Assembly (NCBI GenBank): GCA_003212275.1
Contig: QCQE01000001.1
Location: 1-64,000 of the forward strand
Reading direction: 5' to 3'
Length of the DNA: 64,000 nt
Source: Pelagibacteraceae bacterium AG-447-N18
GTDB lineage: Bacteria; Pseudomonadota; Alphaproteobacteria; Pelagibacterales; Pelagibacteraceae
Below the pieces are notes generated by a model. It saw only the letters and a program-made list of their open reading frames with translations. It had not been told where the DNA came from and did no database searches. Each line of letters starts with the position of its first letter. Within the stretch, counting starts at the first letter, position 1. This document shows, in pieces, positions 9,466 to 31,495 of the stretch. The translations under genes and the position numbers were made by a program.

Positions 9466-9581
9466 TTTTTTATTCTTTTAAAACTTCCTTTACCTTTTTT
9501 AGGTTTAATTACTCTAGGCTTATATTTTCTTGAAAAAAGATCTTTGGCAAATCTATTTTTCTTTTTTAATTTTGTAGCCAT
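9462..9581 (-). CDS. ArfA-like alternative ribosome-rescue factor (39 aa)
   Basis: A 39-codon minus-strand ORF running from ATG 9581 to a TAA at 9462-9464, beginning MATKLKKKNRFAKDLF. Its second half, KPRVIKPKKGKGSFKR, matches the core of ArfA (RQRV-x-K-x-KKGKGSY-x-RK in E. coli). ArfA binds the empty A-site channel of stalled ribosomes and recruits release factor 2 when trans-translation fails. The protein is highly basic, as expected. It overlaps the 3' end of the winged-helix regulator gene (same strand, other frame) by 29 bases and the PfkB gene by four bases on the other strand. The assignment rests on one motif; an RNA- or ribosome-binding basic peptide of another kind is the alternative. 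Confidence 0.68.
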   Translation of the reverse strand: MATKLKKKNRFAKDLFSRKYKPRVIKPKKGKGSFKRIKN

Positions 9582-10119
9582 TTTTTTTACTAATTATAAA
9601 ATTTTCATCATTAAAAGTTTTTGAAATTTTTTTTCTCAAACGATAAATATGTGTTTCAACTGTATGAGTTTCTAATTGAGATTGATATCCCCAAACTTGG
9701 GTTTGTAATTCTTGTATCTTGACTTCTTTTGCAATTTTAAAAAGATATACTATTGAATTGATCTCTTTTTCTGTGAGTTTAAGTTTATTTTTTCCAAAAG
9801 ACATTACACGTGAATTCAAATTAAAATTATAATTACCAATTGTGATATCAGATTGTTCGTGAAATTTTTTTTTAATAAATTCAATATTAATTTTTTCTAG
9901 TAGTTTAAAAATTGATATAGGAAAGTCGTTAAAAACTATTTGATTATTCAGACCTGGTATTTCTTTTTTTGTAAGTACTAAATAATTAGTTTTAGAATTT
10001 AGATCAGTTAGTTTTTGTTTATTTGCCTTTTCAAAACTAAGATTTATATCTTTTTTAATTTCAACTAAAATCTTATATAGTTCATCAAATTCATAAATTA
10101 AAAGATTATGATTATTCAT
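9553..10119 (-). CDS. Winged-helix (OmpR/PhoB-type) regulator with degenerate N-terminus
   Basis: 188 residues. The C-terminal half is an OmpR-type DNA-binding winged helix: KLKLTEKEINSIVYLF, then VWGYQSQLETHTVETHIYRLRKKI, then KKNGYKI, the usual hairpin wing. The N-terminal about 90 residues are where a receiver would sit, but no DD/phospho-Asp/Lys signature is visible, so phosphorylation by a histidine kinase looks unlikely. It is probably a transcription factor of unknown regulon. It starts 14 bases from the divergent L,D-transpeptidase gene, which it may control. Its 3' end overlaps the ArfA-like gene. Confidence 0.78.
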   Translation of the reverse strand: MNNHNLLIYEFDELYKILVEIKKDINLSFEKANKQKLTDLNSKTNYLVLTKKEIPGLNNQIVFNDFPISIFKLLEKINIEFIKKKFHEQSDITIGNYNFNLNSRVMSFGKNKLKLTEKEINSIVYLFKIAKEVKIQELQTQVWGYQSQLETHTVETHIYRLRKKISKTFNDENFIISKKNGYKIKKEK

Positions 10120-19239: not shown

Positions 19240-19883
19240 CAAATTTTTTTTTTCATATTTTTTATATTTAACAAAAATGAATCTTTGTTTGTTAAACTTT
19301 TTTTTTCCTCATAGTCTAAATCCCAAATTTTAAGAGTTTCATTTAAAATTTTTCTCCCACTTTTGCCCATGAATAAAATAATATTTTTATATTTCCGAAA
19401 ATTTTTTTGAATTAAATCAAGAATTATTGGCATTGGTTTAAAAGCTCTGGACATAATCGTTCCAGTTTCAATATCTCTAAGTTTAAAGATATCTTTTTGT
19501 ATTATTTCAGTGTTTAATTCCAATTTTTCAGAAACATCTTTTAAAAAAACACATTTATGATGACTTTTTTCGTAAAGTTTTATTTTCATGCTATTTTTTA
19601 ATTTCTTCATTAAGATTGCTATTATTAGTCCAGGAATTCCACCCCCTGAACCTAAATCAGAGGTTGTATTTGAGTTTAAATCAACAAAATCAATTATTTG
19701 CGCTGAATCAACAATATGTCTTTGCCTTATAACCCCTTGATCAGAGTTTTTTCTACTAATTATGTTAATTTCCTCATTTTTTTTTTTAATCATGCTTATA
19801 AAATTTTCAAGCTCATTACAAGTTTCACGTGAAACTTCAAATTTTGTAATTTTAGAGTAATTTTTAGAAATTATCGAATCCAT
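19239..19883 (-). CDS. rsmG: 16S rRNA (guanine-N7) methyltransferase RsmG (GidB)
   Basis: SAM-dependent methyltransferase modifying G527 (E. coli numbering) of 16S rRNA. 214 residues. SAM-binding motif SDLGSGGGIPGLIIAI; IISRKNSDQGVIRQRHIVDS and SRAFKP are family blocks. The 5' part of the coding sequence contains a perfect parS palindrome, translated as EVSRETC. One-base overlaps with mnmG upstream (TAATG) and parA downstream place it in the mnmE-mnmG-rsmG-parA-parB block. Confidence 0.95.
   Translation of the reverse strand: MDSIISKNYSKITKFEVSRETCNELENFISMIKKKNEEINIISRKNSDQGVIRQRHIVDSAQIIDFVDLNSNTTSDLGSGGGIPGLIIAILMKKLKNSMKIKLYEKSHHKCVFLKDVSEKLELNTEIIQKDIFKLRDIETGTIMSRAFKPMPIILDLIQKNFRKYKNIILFMGKSGRKILNETLKIWDLDYEEKKSLTNKDSFLLNIKNMKKKI
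19821..19836. promoter_or_regulatory. parS centromere-like site
   Basis: AGTTTCACGTGAAACT is a perfect 16-base palindrome containing GTTTCACGTGAAAC, the near-universal bacterial parS core bound by ParB. It lies within the 5' coding part of rsmG, about 0.6 kb before parA and about 11 kb from the predicted origin. I saw no second copy in the window. Confidence 0.92.
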
Positions 19884-23170: not shown

Positions 23171-24853
23171 CTACTTAACAATCCCTTCAAGCGCCTCAAA
23201 AAAACTCTTTGAATAATCTTCGGTATTAAATAACGGACTTTTTATTGCATCAATAAATATGGAATTTCTTATATTGATATAATCATCAGTATTATTTATT
23301 AAATTAGTAACTTTTTGAACATAATCATCCTCATCTTTGGCAATTAATTGCTCCATATTTAGATTTTTATTTATCGACTCCCCACATCTGGAATTAAAAT
23401 TATATCCGGCCATTGTTATTACGGGAACACCCATCCAGATAGCTTCAAATGATGTAGTTACGCCATTATAAGGGAATGTATCAAGTGCAATATCAATAAG
23501 ATTGTAATTGTCTAAATGATCTTTAAATTTTTCTGCTCTATCTAAAAATTTAACTGATTCCAGTACGCCATCTTTTTGAAATAACTCTTTTAGTCTTTTT
23601 GTTGCAAGTCTTTTTGATGATGTTTTTAAAACTAGTTGGGAGTTATTTATTTTTTTCAAAATTTTTGACCAGGTAGAAACGACGCTTGGGTTTATTTTAT
23701 CAAAATTATTAAATGAACCAAAAGTAAAATATTTATTTTTAACAAATGGGGGAGGGTTTTCTTCTCTTTCAAAATCATAACCACAATGCGAGTTCCAGAT
23801 TTTAGGCAAGTATATTACATTTTCACTATAATATTTCTCTTCACCTGAATGAATTAAATTTGGATCTGAAATTATATAATCCATATTTTTTAATCCTGTG
23901 GTGTTACAATATCCCATCCATATAATTTGATTTTTAGCCATCCTGTTTTTAAACAATTCTAAACGTTGTGATGAGGTGTAACCCATTAAATCAATGATAA
24001 TATCTAATTTCAGTTTTCTCGCTTGATTTACTGCATCTATATTATTCAGTTTTGAGATGTTAATTGTTTTGTCAACTAAGTGCTTAAAATTTTCTGTTAA
24101 TTGGTCTTCTTTTGGATTACTTAATAGCAAAAAAATTTCAAATTTGCCTTTATCATAATTTGAAAGAATTGTTTTTAAAAAATAAGTAATGGAATGACCT
24201 TGAATTATATCTGAGGACAAAAAACCTAACCTAATTTTTGAACCAGATGTTTGTGAAATTTCTATTAATTGATTTTGTGGAATTTTGTATAAATTTTCAT
24301 CTACAAATCTACCATAATTATAAAAATCAGACTGACTCCACTCTTTATCAAAACATCGCCAATAACCATAATTACATAAATCAATAACATTAAATTTTTT
24401 AGTTTCTATAACTCTACTAAAATGAAAAATTAATTTTTTTGCATCATTTAATCTTCGATAAACCATAGCCATCGCCAAATTAACCGGTCTATGATTTATA
24501 CAATATTTTTCTGATGTCTTATAGAATTCAAGAATTTCAGAAAAATCAAACTCATAATCTTTATCTAAATCAATTAAAAAAACACTATGTGTTATAAAAT
24601 TTGCAAGAGCATCTATGGCATGAATAGTATTTTTTTCTTTTAAATATCCAAATTTAAAATCTTTGATTGCTGAATTAAGAGTTTCTTTATTTTTATTATT
24701 GTATGCATTCTTGCTCAAACCCAACAAATTACACAAAAAAGCTGATCGTTCCTCTTCTATAGTCGATGAAGTAATTTCAAATACCACCTTAGAATATTGT
24801 CTACTTTTAAATAATTCTGTAGCTTTTATCTCTAATTGTTGGATAGATTCCAT
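23171..24853 (-). CDS. SPINDLY/OGT-like glycosyltransferase (family 41), copy 1
   Basis: 560 residues. The N-terminal about 200 residues are helical and TPR-like. The C-terminal part matches the Glyco_transf_41 (O-GlcNAc transferase/SPINDLY) catalytic region: IRLGFLSSDIIQGHSITYFL, IIIDLMGYTSSQRLELF, QIIWMGYCNTTGLKNMDYII, and DIALDTFPYNGVTTSFEAIW followed by MGVPVITMAG and SRCGES. Such enzymes glycosylate Ser/Thr of proteins; in bacteria targets include flagellin or surface proteins, unknown here. It is a tandem paralogue of the next gene. The pair is inserted between rho and mnmE. Confidence 0.82.
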   Translation of the reverse strand: MESIQQLEIKATELFKSRQYSKVVFEITSSTIEEERSAFLCNLLGLSKNAYNNKNKETLNSAIKDFKFGYLKEKNTIHAIDALANFITHSVFLIDLDKDYEFDFSEILEFYKTSEKYCINHRPVNLAMAMVYRRLNDAKKLIFHFSRVIETKKFNVIDLCNYGYWRCFDKEWSQSDFYNYGRFVDENLYKIPQNQLIEISQTSGSKIRLGFLSSDIIQGHSITYFLKTILSNYDKGKFEIFLLLSNPKEDQLTENFKHLVDKTINISKLNNIDAVNQARKLKLDIIIDLMGYTSSQRLELFKNRMAKNQIIWMGYCNTTGLKNMDYIISDPNLIHSGEEKYYSENVIYLPKIWNSHCGYDFEREENPPPFVKNKYFTFGSFNNFDKINPSVVSTWSKILKKINNSQLVLKTSSKRLATKRLKELFQKDGVLESVKFLDRAEKFKDHLDNYNLIDIALDTFPYNGVTTSFEAIWMGVPVITMAGYNFNSRCGESINKNLNMEQLIAKDEDDYVQKVTNLINNTDDYINIRNSIFIDAIKSPLFNTEDYSKSFFEALEGIVK

Positions 24854-24930: not shown

Positions 24931-26610
24931 TTATTTAATTATTTCCCTTAGTGAACTAAAGAAATTTTCTGAAAATCTTTTTCCATCAAATAACGGACTT
25001 TTAATTGCATTTAGAAATAGAGATTTTCTTATATTCAAAAATTTATCTCTTTCATGAGATAAACTCACAGCTTTATCGACATATTCTTTTTCATCTTTAG
25101 CAATTAAATATTCCATATTTAAATTTTTATTTATAGATTCTCCACATCTAGAATTAAAATTATATCCCGCCATGGTCAAAACAGGTACGCCCATCCATAT
25201 AGCTTCAAAGGATGTGGTAACACCGTTATATGGAAATGTGTCTAGTGCTATATCAATTTTTTTGTACAAATTTAAATGGTCCTCCAAATTGTCAATCTTT
25301 CGATAGAAAATTACTGAGTCTATTACACCACTTTTTTTGAACGCTTCTTGAATTCTATACAATTTTCTTCTTTTATTTGCACATTTTATAATTAATTTAG
25401 AGCCTTTATTTTTTTTTAAAATGTTTGACCAACAATCAATCACATTTTCGTTTATTTTAGCAGGATTGTTAAATGAGCCAAAGGTTATATAATTATTCTT
25501 TATTAGAGGTGGTGGATTTTCTTTTCTATCAAAATCAAATCCACAATGACAGTTCCATATTTCTGGTAAGTATAAAATTTTTTCAATATAATATTTTTCC
25601 TCGTTTTTGAGAACAAGATTGGGATCGGTAATAATATAATCCATATTTTTTAATCCAGATGTATTACAATAACCCATCCATATTACTTGTTTTTTCGCAA
25701 TTCTATTTTTATAAAACTCTATTCTATTTCGTGATGTGTAGCCCATTATATCAATCATAATATCAAGGTTGTGTTGTCTTATGATATTAAAAGCTTCAAG
25801 ATCGTTGAGTTTTCCAACGTTAATTGTTTTAGATACCAAATTAGCTATTTCTTCAGATGTATTATCTTCCTCAATTTGATTGATAAATAAGATTATTTCA
25901 AATTCATCTTGATTATAATTTTTTAATACAGTTTTTAAAAAATAAGTCACCGAATGAGCATTTTTTATATCAGATGACAAAAAACCTATTTTTATTTTTA
26001 TATTTTCTTTATAAGATAATTTAACTACTTTTTCTTGAGGATATATTCTCAAATTTTCATCCACAAACTTACCATATTTGAAAAAATCTGATTGTCTCCA
26101 GCTACTATCAAAACATCTCCAGTATCCGTAATTACATAAATCTTGAACAACGAATTCTTTAGATCTTATTATTTTCTCAAGATGAAATACCATTTCCTTA
26201 TAGTCACTAAGTCTCGAATACATCATTGTCATTGCGATGTTAATTTGTCTTCGATCCTTAAAAGGTTCAGGCAATACTTCATAAAAACTTATTATTTCTT
26301 CAAAATCTACATCAACTTTCTCAAAATCGCTCAAAATTGAACTTGCGACAACTAAGTTAGTCAAAGCGTTAAAGCCATTTTCACTGGTTTTTTCTTTAAG
26401 GTATCCTTTCTTAAAATCATTAACCGCTAATTGTACTTGATCTTTTTTTTTTTTGTTTAGCGAAATCCTGCTTATACCCAGTAAAACAAATAACCCTGCA
26501 TTTCTCTCCTCTTCTTTAGTTTTGGTAGTTATTTGAGAGATTATTTCAGAATATTTTTTTTTTTTATATAAATCTTGAAGTTCTAATTCTAAATTTTTCG
26601 CTGATACCAT
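24931..26610 (-). CDS. SPINDLY/OGT-like glycosyltransferase (family 41), copy 2
   Basis: 559 residues, nearly the same length and layout as copy 1, 77 bases away. Shared blocks include IGFLSSDIKNAHSVTYFLK, WMGYCNTSGLKNMDYIITDP, NCHCGFDFDRKENPPP, DIALDTFPYNGVTTSFEAIW and YNFNSRCGESINKNLNME. The N-terminal TPR-like parts are more diverged than the catalytic parts, consistent with duplication followed by change in target binding. It is ten bases downstream of rho. The acceptor is unknown; protein O-glycosylation is inferred from the family. Confidence 0.82.
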   Translation of the reverse strand: MVSAKNLELELQDLYKKKKYSEIISQITTKTKEEERNAGLFVLLGISRISLNKKKKDQVQLAVNDFKKGYLKEKTSENGFNALTNLVVASSILSDFEKVDVDFEEIISFYEVLPEPFKDRRQINIAMTMMYSRLSDYKEMVFHLEKIIRSKEFVVQDLCNYGYWRCFDSSWRQSDFFKYGKFVDENLRIYPQEKVVKLSYKENIKIKIGFLSSDIKNAHSVTYFLKTVLKNYNQDEFEIILFINQIEEDNTSEEIANLVSKTINVGKLNDLEAFNIIRQHNLDIMIDIMGYTSRNRIEFYKNRIAKKQVIWMGYCNTSGLKNMDYIITDPNLVLKNEEKYYIEKILYLPEIWNCHCGFDFDRKENPPPLIKNNYITFGSFNNPAKINENVIDCWSNILKKNKGSKLIIKCANKRRKLYRIQEAFKKSGVIDSVIFYRKIDNLEDHLNLYKKIDIALDTFPYNGVTTSFEAIWMGVPVLTMAGYNFNSRCGESINKNLNMEYLIAKDEKEYVDKAVSLSHERDKFLNIRKSLFLNAIKSPLFDGKRFSENFFSSLREIIK

Positions 26611-28388: not shown

Positions 28389-29390
28389 TTACATGTTTTG
28401 TTGAATTAATGATTTTAGCAAATTTATATGATCATCATTATCATTTAAACATGGTACCATATCAAAATTTTCACCGCCAGATTCTAAAAAGCTTTCTTTG
28501 CCTTGAATAAGAATTTCCTCCAAAGTCTCAACACAATCGGAGGAAAAACCAGGACATATTGCAAGAACATTCTTCTTTCCCTCTTTGGGCAATTTCTCTA
28601 GTGTTTTATCTGTATAGGGCTCAAGCCATTTTTGAGGACCAAATCTAGATTGAAATGTTGTTTTAATTTCTATCGAATTAAATTTCTCTGAAATCAATCT
28701 TGTCGTTTTTTGACAATAGCAGTGATATGGGTCTCCTTTATCAAAATATTTTTGGGGTATACCATGATAAGATGCTAAGATTAAATCTGGCTTCCAATTT
28801 ATTTCTTTTATTTTTTTATTTAAGGAATTTACTAAAGCATCTATGTACAAGGGATGTGACTCGTAATGTGGGATTATTTTGATTGATGGTTGCCATCTCA
28901 TTTGCATAAGCGTTCTATATACTTCATCACAAACAGTTGCTGTTGTTGCTGCGGCATATTGAGGATATAGAGGGAGTATAATCAAGTTCTCACAACCTTT
29001 TTCATGAAGTTTTTTTATTTTGCTTTTTATACTCGGATTTCCATACCTCATGGCAAAATCAATAATCAGATTTTGCTCTGAGAAGGAATTGGATAATCTC
29101 TTAGCTTGTTCTTGTGTATAATAGAGAAGGGGAGAAATATTTTTATCTTTCATCCAAATTTCTTTATAAGCTTTAGCGGTTTTAGATGGTCTAAAATTTA
29201 ATATAAAAACATTTAATATAATTTGCCAAACAAAAGGATTAACTTCTATTACCCTTTTATCAGAGAGAAATTCTTTCAAATATTTTCTAATATCAAACCA
29301 ACTTGTAGAGTCCGGTGTACCCAAATTTATTATCAGGGCTCCTGTTTTGCCAAAATTAATAGGTGGATGATTTAACTCTTTTTCCATCAA
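28389..29390 (-). CDS. hemH: Ferrochelatase
   Basis: 333 residues; inserts Fe2+ into protoporphyrin IX, the last haem step. Family blocks: GALIINLGTPDS, IILPLYPQYAAATTATVCD, LILASYHGIPQKYFDKGDPYHC (catalytic His in SYHG), FQSRFGPQKWLEPYTD and the C-terminal ICPGFSSDCVETLEEI with the conserved Glu. The start overlaps the hemE stop by four bases. The membrane oxidase HemJ follows. Confidence 0.96.
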   Translation of the reverse strand: MMEKELNHPPINFGKTGALIINLGTPDSTSWFDIRKYLKEFLSDKRVIEVNPFVWQIILNVFILNFRPSKTAKAYKEIWMKDKNISPLLYYTQEQAKRLSNSFSEQNLIIDFAMRYGNPSIKSKIKKLHEKGCENLIILPLYPQYAAATTATVCDEVYRTLMQMRWQPSIKIIPHYESHPLYIDALVNSLNKKIKEINWKPDLILASYHGIPQKYFDKGDPYHCYCQKTTRLISEKFNSIEIKTTFQSRFGPQKWLEPYTDKTLEKLPKEGKKNVLAICPGFSSDCVETLEEILIQGKESFLESGGENFDMVPCLNDNDDHINLLKSLIQQNM

Positions 29391-30388
29391 TAATCTTTTA
29401 TAGTTTTAACTAAATAATCCATCATACTTGGATCTGTTTCGGGTAATATTCCATGACCTAAATTAAATATATATGGATGATCTTTAAAAATATCCAGATA
29501 CTTAATTGCTTCTTTTTTAATGTTGTCTTTATCAGTGAGTAAAACTTTCGGATCCATGCCACCTTGCACAGGAATTTTTATTTCTTTTTCAATTTTTATT
29601 GGATCAACTTCATAGTCTATACAAATTGCATCTGGTTTTACAATTTCACAATATTTTTTATAATTTTTTATACCTCGTGGGAAACAAATCACTGGAACAT
29701 TTAAAGATTTGGTAAATTCAACTAAAGAACAAGTTGGATTATAGATGTAAAAATCATAATCCTTATCTTCTAATAGTCCCGCCCAACTATCAAAAATTTG
29801 TATAATATCTGCACCACTATCAATTTGATTTTTAATATGAATTTTTAAAAATTTATCTATTATTTTTAAAGTTTTTTCAATTATAGAAAAATCTTTAAAA
29901 AAATTTTCTTTGAGCTTTATTTTTGGAGATTGTTTATTTAGAATATAAACAAGTAATGTCCAAGGAGCTCCAACAAAACCTATAGTAGACTTGTTTTCTG
30001 TTAAATTGTTATTTCTTACCAAATTTATAGCTTTATAAACAGGATCAACTCTTTCAATAAAATCACTTTCAGTAATTTCAAATGCTTGATTAAGGTTTAA
30101 ATCACCAAGGATGGGTCCAATATTTTTTTTAAATTCTACTTTTTGTTTCAAACCATAAGGTAAGATTAATATATCAGAAAAGATTATGGCTGCATCTAAG
30201 TCAAATCTTTTAAGAGGTTGTAAAGTTATTTCAGCTGATAAACTAGAATTTAGACATAGTTTAATAAAATCAGTATTTTTTTTTCTAATTTCTCTAAACT
30301 CTGGCAGATATCTTCCAGCTTGCCTCATAATCCATATGGGATTTAAGTCTGTTTTTCTATCTCTAATAACTTTCTTAATGTTAGACAT
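29387..30388 (-). CDS. hemE: Uroporphyrinogen decarboxylase
   Basis: 333-residue enzyme removing four carboxyl groups from uroporphyrinogen III. IWIMRQAGRYLPEFREIR is the substrate-binding signature, AAIIFSDILILPYGL contains the catalytic Asp region, and GFVGAPWTLLVYIL plus FNLGHGILPETDP complete the family pattern. It is the first gene left of the predicted origin and transcribed away from it, as in Caulobacter and Rickettsia. Confidence 0.97.
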   Translation of the reverse strand: MSNIKKVIRDRKTDLNPIWIMRQAGRYLPEFREIRKKNTDFIKLCLNSSLSAEITLQPLKRFDLDAAIIFSDILILPYGLKQKVEFKKNIGPILGDLNLNQAFEITESDFIERVDPVYKAINLVRNNNLTENKSTIGFVGAPWTLLVYILNKQSPKIKLKENFFKDFSIIEKTLKIIDKFLKIHIKNQIDSGADIIQIFDSWAGLLEDKDYDFYIYNPTCSLVEFTKSLNVPVICFPRGIKNYKKYCEIVKPDAICIDYEVDPIKIEKEIKIPVQGGMDPKVLLTDKDNIKKEAIKYLDIFKDHPYIFNLGHGILPETDPSMMDYLVKTIKDY

Positions 30389-30670
30389 ATTAATAATTAA
30401 GTCTATTTAATAGTATTTGTAGTATGAGCTGTGAAATACGTGGATTAAATTTTATATACATTTTATAAACCAGTTATTAACATTTAAATGTAATTTTTTG
30501 ATATATATATAAGTAATATTGAAGCTTATTACCAATATTTCAATTTAATGAAAAACTTTATACAGATGTTTAATAATGTTAATAAAAGCTATGTTTTACA
30601 GCATAAATTTTAAATTTATAAAATTAATTAATTTTGTCTAAAAAAAACAAAAACTATTAACACTTTATAC
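30389..30670. other. oriC: Predicted chromosomal origin of replication (oriC)
   Basis: A 282-base AT-rich gap between divergent hemE and the DUF299 regulator gene, the location of oriC in Caulobacter and Rickettsia. Internal structure: the 8-mer TATTAACA occurs three times (30475-30482 plus, 30577-30584 minus, 30655-30662 plus); ACTTTATACA occurs twice (30555-30564, 30662-30671), containing the DnaA-box-like TTATACA; a TATATATATA stretch lies near 30500-30512; and an inverted repeat AATATTG/CAATATT lies at 30515-30521 and 30533-30539. No perfect TTATCCACA box is present. Genes run outward on both sides and parABS is about 11 kb away. It must also hold the promoters of both flanking operons. 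Confidence 0.75.
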
Positions 30671-31495
30671 ATGAGTAATATTTATCAGATTTATCTAATA
30701 TCAGACTCTACGGGTGAAACGTTAGATAGAATTTTTACTGCAATTAAAGCTCAATTTAAAAATATAGATTACAAAATACATACTTATTCCTTTACAAGAA
30801 CTGAAAACCAAATTTTAAAAATTTTATCAAATGCCAAAGAAAATCAAAACTCTATCATCTTATATTCAATCGTAGATAGTAGCCTTGCAAAATATCTTGC
30901 TAGAAATAGCGAAGAAAAGAAAATTCCTTGTTTTGGTGTTCTTGGAGATTTAATCTTAAGCTTTTCAAAGCTACTTAACCAAAAAGCATCTCACCAACCC
31001 AGTGGTCAATACACTCTCAATGATGAGTATTATAAAAGGATTGAAGCAATCCAATTTACAATGAACCATGATGATGGGAATTTAGTAAAAGATATAAAAA
31101 AATCGGACATTATTTTATTGGGGGTTAGTAGGACAAGCAAAACACCAACCTCGATTTATCTAGCAAACAAAGGGTTTAAAATATCTAATATTCCTCTGGT
31201 AAATGAAAATTCAATTCCTGAGACTTTAAAAGAAGACCCAAACCTTACTTGTATTGTTGGATTAAGCACAGAAGCAGAAAGGTTAGCTGATATTAGGAAA
31301 AATCGAATGAATTCATTAAAAGAGTCTCAGAATAAATCTTATACAGATCTATCTAAAATTAAAAAAGAAGTTGAGGACGCTAAAAATACTTTTAAAAAAT
31401 ATAAATGGCCAATTATAGATGTTACTAGAAAATCAGTCGAAGAAACTGCCGCCTCAATTATAAAGATATACGAAATATATAAAAATAATGGTTAA
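30671..31495 (+). CDS. Pyruvate, water dikinase (PEP synthase) regulatory protein
   Basis: 274-residue DUF299-family bifunctional kinase/pyrophosphorylase that inactivates and reactivates PEP synthase or pyruvate phosphate dikinase by threonine phosphorylation. Family features: the start YQIYLISDSTGETLDRI and the P-loop-like DIILLGVSRTSKTPTSIYLA near residue 150. It is the first gene right of the predicted origin, transcribed away from it. It overlaps maf by eight bases. Confidence 0.92.
   Translation: MSNIYQIYLISDSTGETLDRIFTAIKAQFKNIDYKIHTYSFTRTENQILKILSNAKENQNSIILYSIVDSSLAKYLARNSEEKKIPCFGVLGDLILSFSKLLNQKASHQPSGQYTLNDEYYKRIEAIQFTMNHDDGNLVKDIKKSDIILLGVSRTSKTPTSIYLANKGFKISNIPLVNENSIPETLKEDPNLTCIVGLSTEAERLADIRKNRMNSLKESQNKSYTDLSKIKKEVEDAKNTFKKYKWPIIDVTRKSVEETAASIIKIYEIYKNNG

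Follow-up and report, generated by a model that had tools for sequence, protein, structure and literature searches.

Introduction

The chromosomal origins closest to the locus studied here are those of other Alphaproteobacteria. In Caulobacter crescentus, the interval between hemE and a COG1806/DUF299 gene is a proven origin, Cori (PMC1914354), which binds DnaA at weak sites known as the G- and W-boxes (PMC1914354, PMC4468827) and also carries five CtrA sites and an IHF site. The predicted origin of Rickettsia prowazekii, an AT-rich alphaproteobacterium, has the same hemE and COG1806 flanks, and its published description includes CtrA/IHF sites (PMC1914354). Two systems outside the class are also relevant: the basal unwinding system (BUS) of Bacillus subtilis and others, in which a DnaA box is followed by a short spacer, phased trios readable as 3'-GAT/TAT-5' and AT-rich DNA (PMC6669920, PMC8287927), and the low-affinity arrays of Escherichia coli oriC, in which weak sites are spaced for cooperative DnaA assembly (PMC4285127). 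An element map of a SAR11 origin was not found in the open-access literature searched.

Here we describe the gap between hemE and ppsR in a SAR11 genome. The window, meaning the whole stretch analysed, comprises the initial 64 kb of a contig of 200,714 bp, from a genome of 1.12 Mb in 36 contigs. The gap at 30389-30670 is very probably the oriC of the SAR11 chromosome, a placement already proposed in an earlier note on this DNA and upheld by the conservation of the gap, its box lattice, and its skew and parS context. The location follows the known alphaproteobacterial origin plan, of which this gap would be a variant. Taken together, we regard it as highly likely that this is an oriC built on the hemE-ppsR plan, with rigidly placed, mostly weak TTATNNACA boxes and trio-guided opening beside hemE. 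The place of the gap, its conservation, its fixed spacing, its phased trinucleotide tract, and its skew and parS context are direct observations; DnaA binding, the direction of opening and helicase loading are inferred.

The hemE-ppsR locus

The locus and the nearest partition site are laid out as follows.

29387..30388, minus strand: hemE, uroporphyrinogen decarboxylase (Pfam URO-D)
30389..30670, no strand: predicted oriC, the whole hemE-ppsR gap (282 bp, 17% GC)
30671..31495, plus strand: ppsR, DUF299 (COG1806) kinase-pyrophosphorylase family (Pfam Kinase-PPPase)
19821..19836, plus strand: parS-like site AGTTTCACGTGAAACT inside rsmG, beside parA/parB (sequence search and Pfam context)

For comparison we assembled 30 same-genus and 80 named loci, giving 110 hemE-ppsR gaps, of which 107 are distinct. 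The hemE and COG1806/DUF299 flanks that characterize an alphaproteobacterial hemE-type oriC are present here, by Pfam on both sides, and in 110/110 relatives, and the gap measures 261-288 bp in all 110 Pelagibacteraceae loci; the ppsR protein of the window reaches up to 100% identity to loci labelled uncultured Pelagibacteraceae. Gene orientation diverges outward from the gap, locally, and to the left of the gap in the window, at a distance of about 11-13 kb, are parB, parA and a single parS-like site (19821). The earlier note had likewise remarked on diverging genes and a nearby parABS. Also near the predicted origin, two adjacent and clearly similar proteins of about 560 aa are encoded at 23171-24853 and 24931-26610 (minus strand), an apparent tandem duplication.

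A rigid lattice of predicted DnaA boxes

Conservation was measured over the 107 distinct gaps after weighting to reduce the influence of related sequences, which left an effective number of about 26, and every offset on both strands was scored. Seven box positions stand out, each within one mismatch of TTATNNACA in 57-92% of gaps (weighted), against 19% for the next-best offset, and these supply the DnaA-box cluster that belongs to a hemE-type oriC. Over all gaps TTATNNACA occurs 375 times against a shuffle mean of 45, its density being 12.3/kb in the gaps and 0.33/kb in flanking DNA, and the spelling TTATTAACA is present in 185 copies as against 2 of TTATCCACA. The elements, from the hemE side to the ppsR side, are listed below.

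30430..30438, minus strand: DnaA box B1, reading TATTTCACA in this gap against a genus consensus of TTATTCACA; 91% of the 107 gaps (weighted) match TTATNNACA with no more than one mismatch
30439..30447, minus strand: conserved element directly next to B1, reading TAATCCACG in this gap and TAATCCACA in some close relatives; column-conservation peak at 30439
30452..30460, plus strand: DnaA box B2, TTATATACA; position conserved, 22 bp from B1 in 107/107 gaps
30463..30471, plus strand: DnaA box B3, TTATAAACC; 11 bp from B2 in 107/107
30474..30482, plus strand: DnaA box B4, TTATTAACA; 11 bp from B3 in 107/107
30558..30566, plus strand: DnaA box B5, TTATACAGA, inside the first ACTTTATACA; position conserved
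30577..30585, minus strand: DnaA box B6, TTATTAACA; within one mismatch in 92% (weighted), 19 bp from B5 in 105/107
30654..30662, plus strand: DnaA box B7, CTATTAACA; within one mismatch in 81% (weighted)
30665..30673, plus strand: half-box B8, TTATACATG (also the consensus), which overlaps the start codon of ppsR; at an 11-bp step from B7 in 105/107

Distances within the modules are thus fixed, and the linkers between modules vary in length across gaps. The low-affinity DnaA sites of the E. coli array have a 2-bp separation. By analogy with those arrays (PMC4285127), the one-helical-turn steps of the SAR11 boxes would put DnaA on one face of the DNA; the two origins differ in that the gap studied here has no strong TTATCCACA anchors and has other flanking genes.

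The sequence features listed in the earlier note are all present: three TATTAACA copies at 30475 (+), 30577 (-) and 30655 (+); two ACTTTATACA copies, located at 30555 and 30662 and with no others anywhere in the 64 kb, the second extending one base into the ppsR ATG; a TATATATATA stretch; and an inverted repeat (11/11, 30474-30484 / 30575-30585), which consists of two boxes in opposite orientation. We also agree that there is no perfect TTATCCACA, since neither it nor TTATNCACA occurs within the gap. The suggestion of lineage-specific DnaA sites broadly holds, but in the form of a single family of degenerate boxes occupying seven fixed positions and not of two element types: TATTAACA is the core of the lineage box TTATTAACA, and of the two repeats expected to be conserved in relatives, TATTAACA is found in at least one copy in 102/107 gaps, whereas the ACTTTATACA pair is confined to 13/107, all close relatives, and is rejected as a separate element. 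That reading overlooked the most informative element, the trio-like tract with its reversed box at the hemE edge, as well as the fixed lattice and the right-edge box over the ppsR start.

Among the 17 gaps closest to that of the window, B1 no longer has the consensus form TTATTCACA and has decayed to TATTTCACA or close variants, and in most of these gaps the abutting element is TAATCCACG or TAATCCACA. This element may have taken over as the anchor box, 9 bp further on and still inside the published spacer range.

The trio-like tract and the proposed site of first opening

Between hemE and B1 lies a second group of elements, given here together with the AT-rich linker farther into the gap.

30389..30410, no strand: AT-rich stretch beside hemE, candidate first-opened DNA on the trio model
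30411..30425, plus strand: DnaA-trio-like tract TAG TAT TTG TAG TAT, in phase with B1
30426..30429, no strand: 4-bp spacer GAGC separating the trio tract from B1, read from the sequence
30483..30557, no strand: AT-rich linker containing TATATATATA at 30502-30511, a possible alternative site of unwinding; sequence poorly conserved, length variable

Trinucleotide repeats phased beside a DnaA box, the mark of a BUS, are found in the lineage: six trios in the phase of B1 contain on average 3.27 TA[GT], whereas the two other phases give 0.24 and 0.80 and shuffles give 0.71±0.12. The published loose trio rule (three or more contiguous trios that have A in the middle, and a spacer not exceeding 16 bp) is satisfied by 66% of gaps, the window gap among them with 3 contiguous trios, but also by 61% of shuffles, and it is therefore non-discriminating in such AT-rich DNA, so that our claim is limited to a phased, conserved, trio-like tract from which we infer function. 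A stricter TA[GT] rule separates gaps from shuffles (50% against 2%), the window gap having only 2 such trios; its third trio is TTG, which lacks the middle A. Compared with the published BUS, the trios of this gap are degenerate (TAT and TTG among TAG), the box adjacent to the tract is weak in the window species, and the arrangement is a prediction from sequence.

In the mechanism that we propose, DnaA would bind the rigid set of mostly weak TTATNNACA boxes, laid out with B1 reversed at the hemE side, B2 two turns on, B2-B3-B4 in one-turn steps, B5/B6 in mid-gap and B7/B8 at the ppsR edge. DnaA would be loaded from B1 and the element abutting it, presumably in the leftward direction, and would come to lie on a single strand of the phased TAG/TAT trios; DnaA on the trios would then open the AT-rich DNA beside hemE and probably admit the helicase. 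The 30-mers starting at 30380-30390 are among the least stable 1-3% of the window.

The alternative that survives best accepts the gap as oriC but places first opening in the AT-rich linker between B4 and B5, leaving the trio-like tract unused for unwinding. The 30-mers of lowest stability in the gap fall in the linker (the one starting at 30490 belongs to the least stable 0.1% in the window), which also contains TATATATATA and has boxes on both flanks; the sequence and length of the linker are poorly conserved, however, in contrast to the tract on the B1 side, which is conserved and in phase. We consider opening in the linker unlikely, though still to be reckoned with, and retain opening beside hemE as the preferred reading.

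At the hemE edge of several other Alphaproteobacteria, a TAGTAGTTG-type or GTAGTGG-type tract is followed by CCTGTGAATAACGG or CCTGTGGATAACGG. Sequence of the CCTGTGAATAACGG / CCTGTGGATAACGG type recurs at this edge of the hemE-ppsR gap in several alphaproteobacterial families, and we know of no role for its CGG half, which abuts the box.

Genome-scale context

Whether a match to these elements singles out the gap depends on how much of the arrangement is used. A block model comprising the trio tract and B1-B4, built only from training sequences that share no more than 60% identity with the target and run on both strands, ranks the gap as the clear best site both in G012, a complete genome of the same genus (39.6 bits, with 16.2 for the next site), and in the window's own contig (39.4 bits, with 8.5 for the next). 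Parts of the model used alone give a less decisive result. Exact-box clustering places the gap first in G012, a weak result with only three boxes in 300 bp, and a density scan of G012 with a single-box PWM does not rank the gap first, its top being an AT-rich intergenic stretch at 618.7 kb. This densest DnaA-box-like patch (about 618,680-619,000) lies beside the skew maximum, near the presumed terminus, and is probably a composition effect.

Skew was computed on G012, the window's own genome being fragmented, and on the window's contig. The earlier note had predicted a GC-skew minimum at the gap, and the result is in keeping with this: cumulative GC skew in G012 peaks at about 0.616 Mb, about half a genome away, and has a flat valley with a support interval of 1.229-1.291 Mb that includes the gap at 1.262 Mb. 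Such intervals take no account of correlation at the scale of genes and are narrower than they should be. For TA and purine skew, the minima fall at 1.227-1.238 Mb, about 30 kb from the gap. Because the GC valley is flat and these minima lie elsewhere, skew supports the region and not the exact gap; local minima on the window's contig at about 30 kb and about 60 kb are not decisive alone. G012 has a single exact parS core, at 1.2547 Mb and some 7 kb distant from the gap; its dnaA is not at the gap, lying about 63 kb away.

The offset of the TA and purine minima lends some weight to a second alternative, in which the gap is a shared regulatory region of divergent hemE and ppsR promoters, bound by DnaA or another factor, with the origin nearby, for example at about 1.231 Mb in G012. 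Divergent genes do require promoters, and B8 overlaps the ppsR start codon. Against this stand the rigid multi-box lattice, the persistence of the gap in a sister family after loss of ppsR (described below), the proven Caulobacter origin at the same location (PMC1914354) and the position of parS closest to the gap, and we judge a purely regulatory gap very improbable.

The last alternative, that the repeats are chance products of 17% GC sequence, is right in so far as 81% of dinucleotide shuffles of the gap contain an 8-mer in three or more copies and 56% contain a 10-mer in two copies, so that the repeats are rejected as single-sequence evidence, but conservation of the sites at the same places and distances in 107 distinct gaps and the clear composite match leave it a negligible probability. 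As conserved sites across genomes, the TTATNNACA set overwhelmingly exceeds chance; the chance reading is refuted for that set and still stands for ACTTTATACA as an independent element.

Regulators of Caulobacter-type origins

Despite the shared location and the weak DnaA sites, the predicted SAR11 origin differs from Cori in several respects. Its gap is about 280 bp long, its box is spelled TTATTAACA instead of TGATCCACA, and the five CtrA sites of Cori contrast with a window gap in which no CtrA box (TTAA-N7-TTAA) was found. Over all gaps this motif occurs 78 times against 56 expected, which barely exceeds the shuffle maximum of 74 and is not a clear enrichment. A CtrA gene was not found in G012 with a CtrA protein query, the four OmpR-type DNA-binding proteins detected there showing at most about 32% identity to CtrA and the best being PhoB-like. 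The comparison with R. prowazekii, whose published origin has CtrA/IHF sites, was made at the level of the published description.

Among its other genes, the window encodes at 9553-10119 (minus strand) a 188-aa protein with a C-terminal OmpR-type DNA-binding domain and no evident receiver domain, which has a 184-aa counterpart in G012 about 18 kb from the origin.

GANTC, the CcrM site, is present in only 3/107 gaps, unlike what is expected of a Caulobacter-type Cori. Depletion of GANTC at the origin was considered and set aside: it looks strong in unweighted both-strand counts (6 against 22) and lost after weighting (1.6 against 3.5, lowest shuffle 0.5). An N6/N4 methyltransferase gives a strong match in 10/10 genomes and GcrA is found in 8/10; the published sentence on SAR11 and CcrM is ambiguously worded (PMC3973325).

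The sister family and the DnaA protein

In a sister family of the same order, a gap of 271-281 bp is kept between hemE and maf, and ppsR was not found in the genomes of that family. Many of these genomes have a TTATGAACA box overlapping the maf start codon, and one genus has TAGTAGTAGTAGTTGTGCC followed by TGTG at the place of the trio tract. Most sampled other Alphaproteobacteria with ppsR retain the hemE-ppsR gap.

Aligned to E. coli DnaA (1J1V), domain IV of DnaA from the Pelagibacter lineage retains the RPRQ and RDHTT motifs. The lineage has V before RPRQ and FSN or FAN before RDHTT in 15/15 proteins, as against A and FGG in 12/12 from the sister family and mostly GG in other classmates. 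The idea that FGG to FSN is a SAR11-only change is weakened by FGN, FGD and shortened forms elsewhere in the class. At box position 6, in loosely defined boxes, A and C number 290 and 106 in the lineage and 15 and 19 in the sister family, a shift confounded by gap base composition (14-20% GC in the lineage, 22-31% in the sister family), so that co-evolution of DnaA and its box can be offered only as a hypothesis. On this hypothesis, which we find possible though doubtful, SAR11 changed its initiator code, with derived DnaA residues beside the DNA-contacting ones and boxes drifting from C towards A at position 6 (TTATTAACA), DnaA and oriC having co-evolved.

Significance

SAR11 bacteria are among the most abundant cell groups in the ocean. 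Their replication in situ has been estimated from origin-to-terminus read coverage (PMC9589681), and an origin placed at base level would provide a fixed anchor for such coverage-based estimates. Should co-evolution of DnaA and its boxes prove true, it would represent a new DnaA-oriC recognition spelling in one of the sea's most abundant cell groups. The B1-22-B2-11-B3-11-B4 lattice and its trio-like tract would, in turn, offer a small natural origin for testing how DnaA assembles on weak sites without a perfect box or CtrA boxes.
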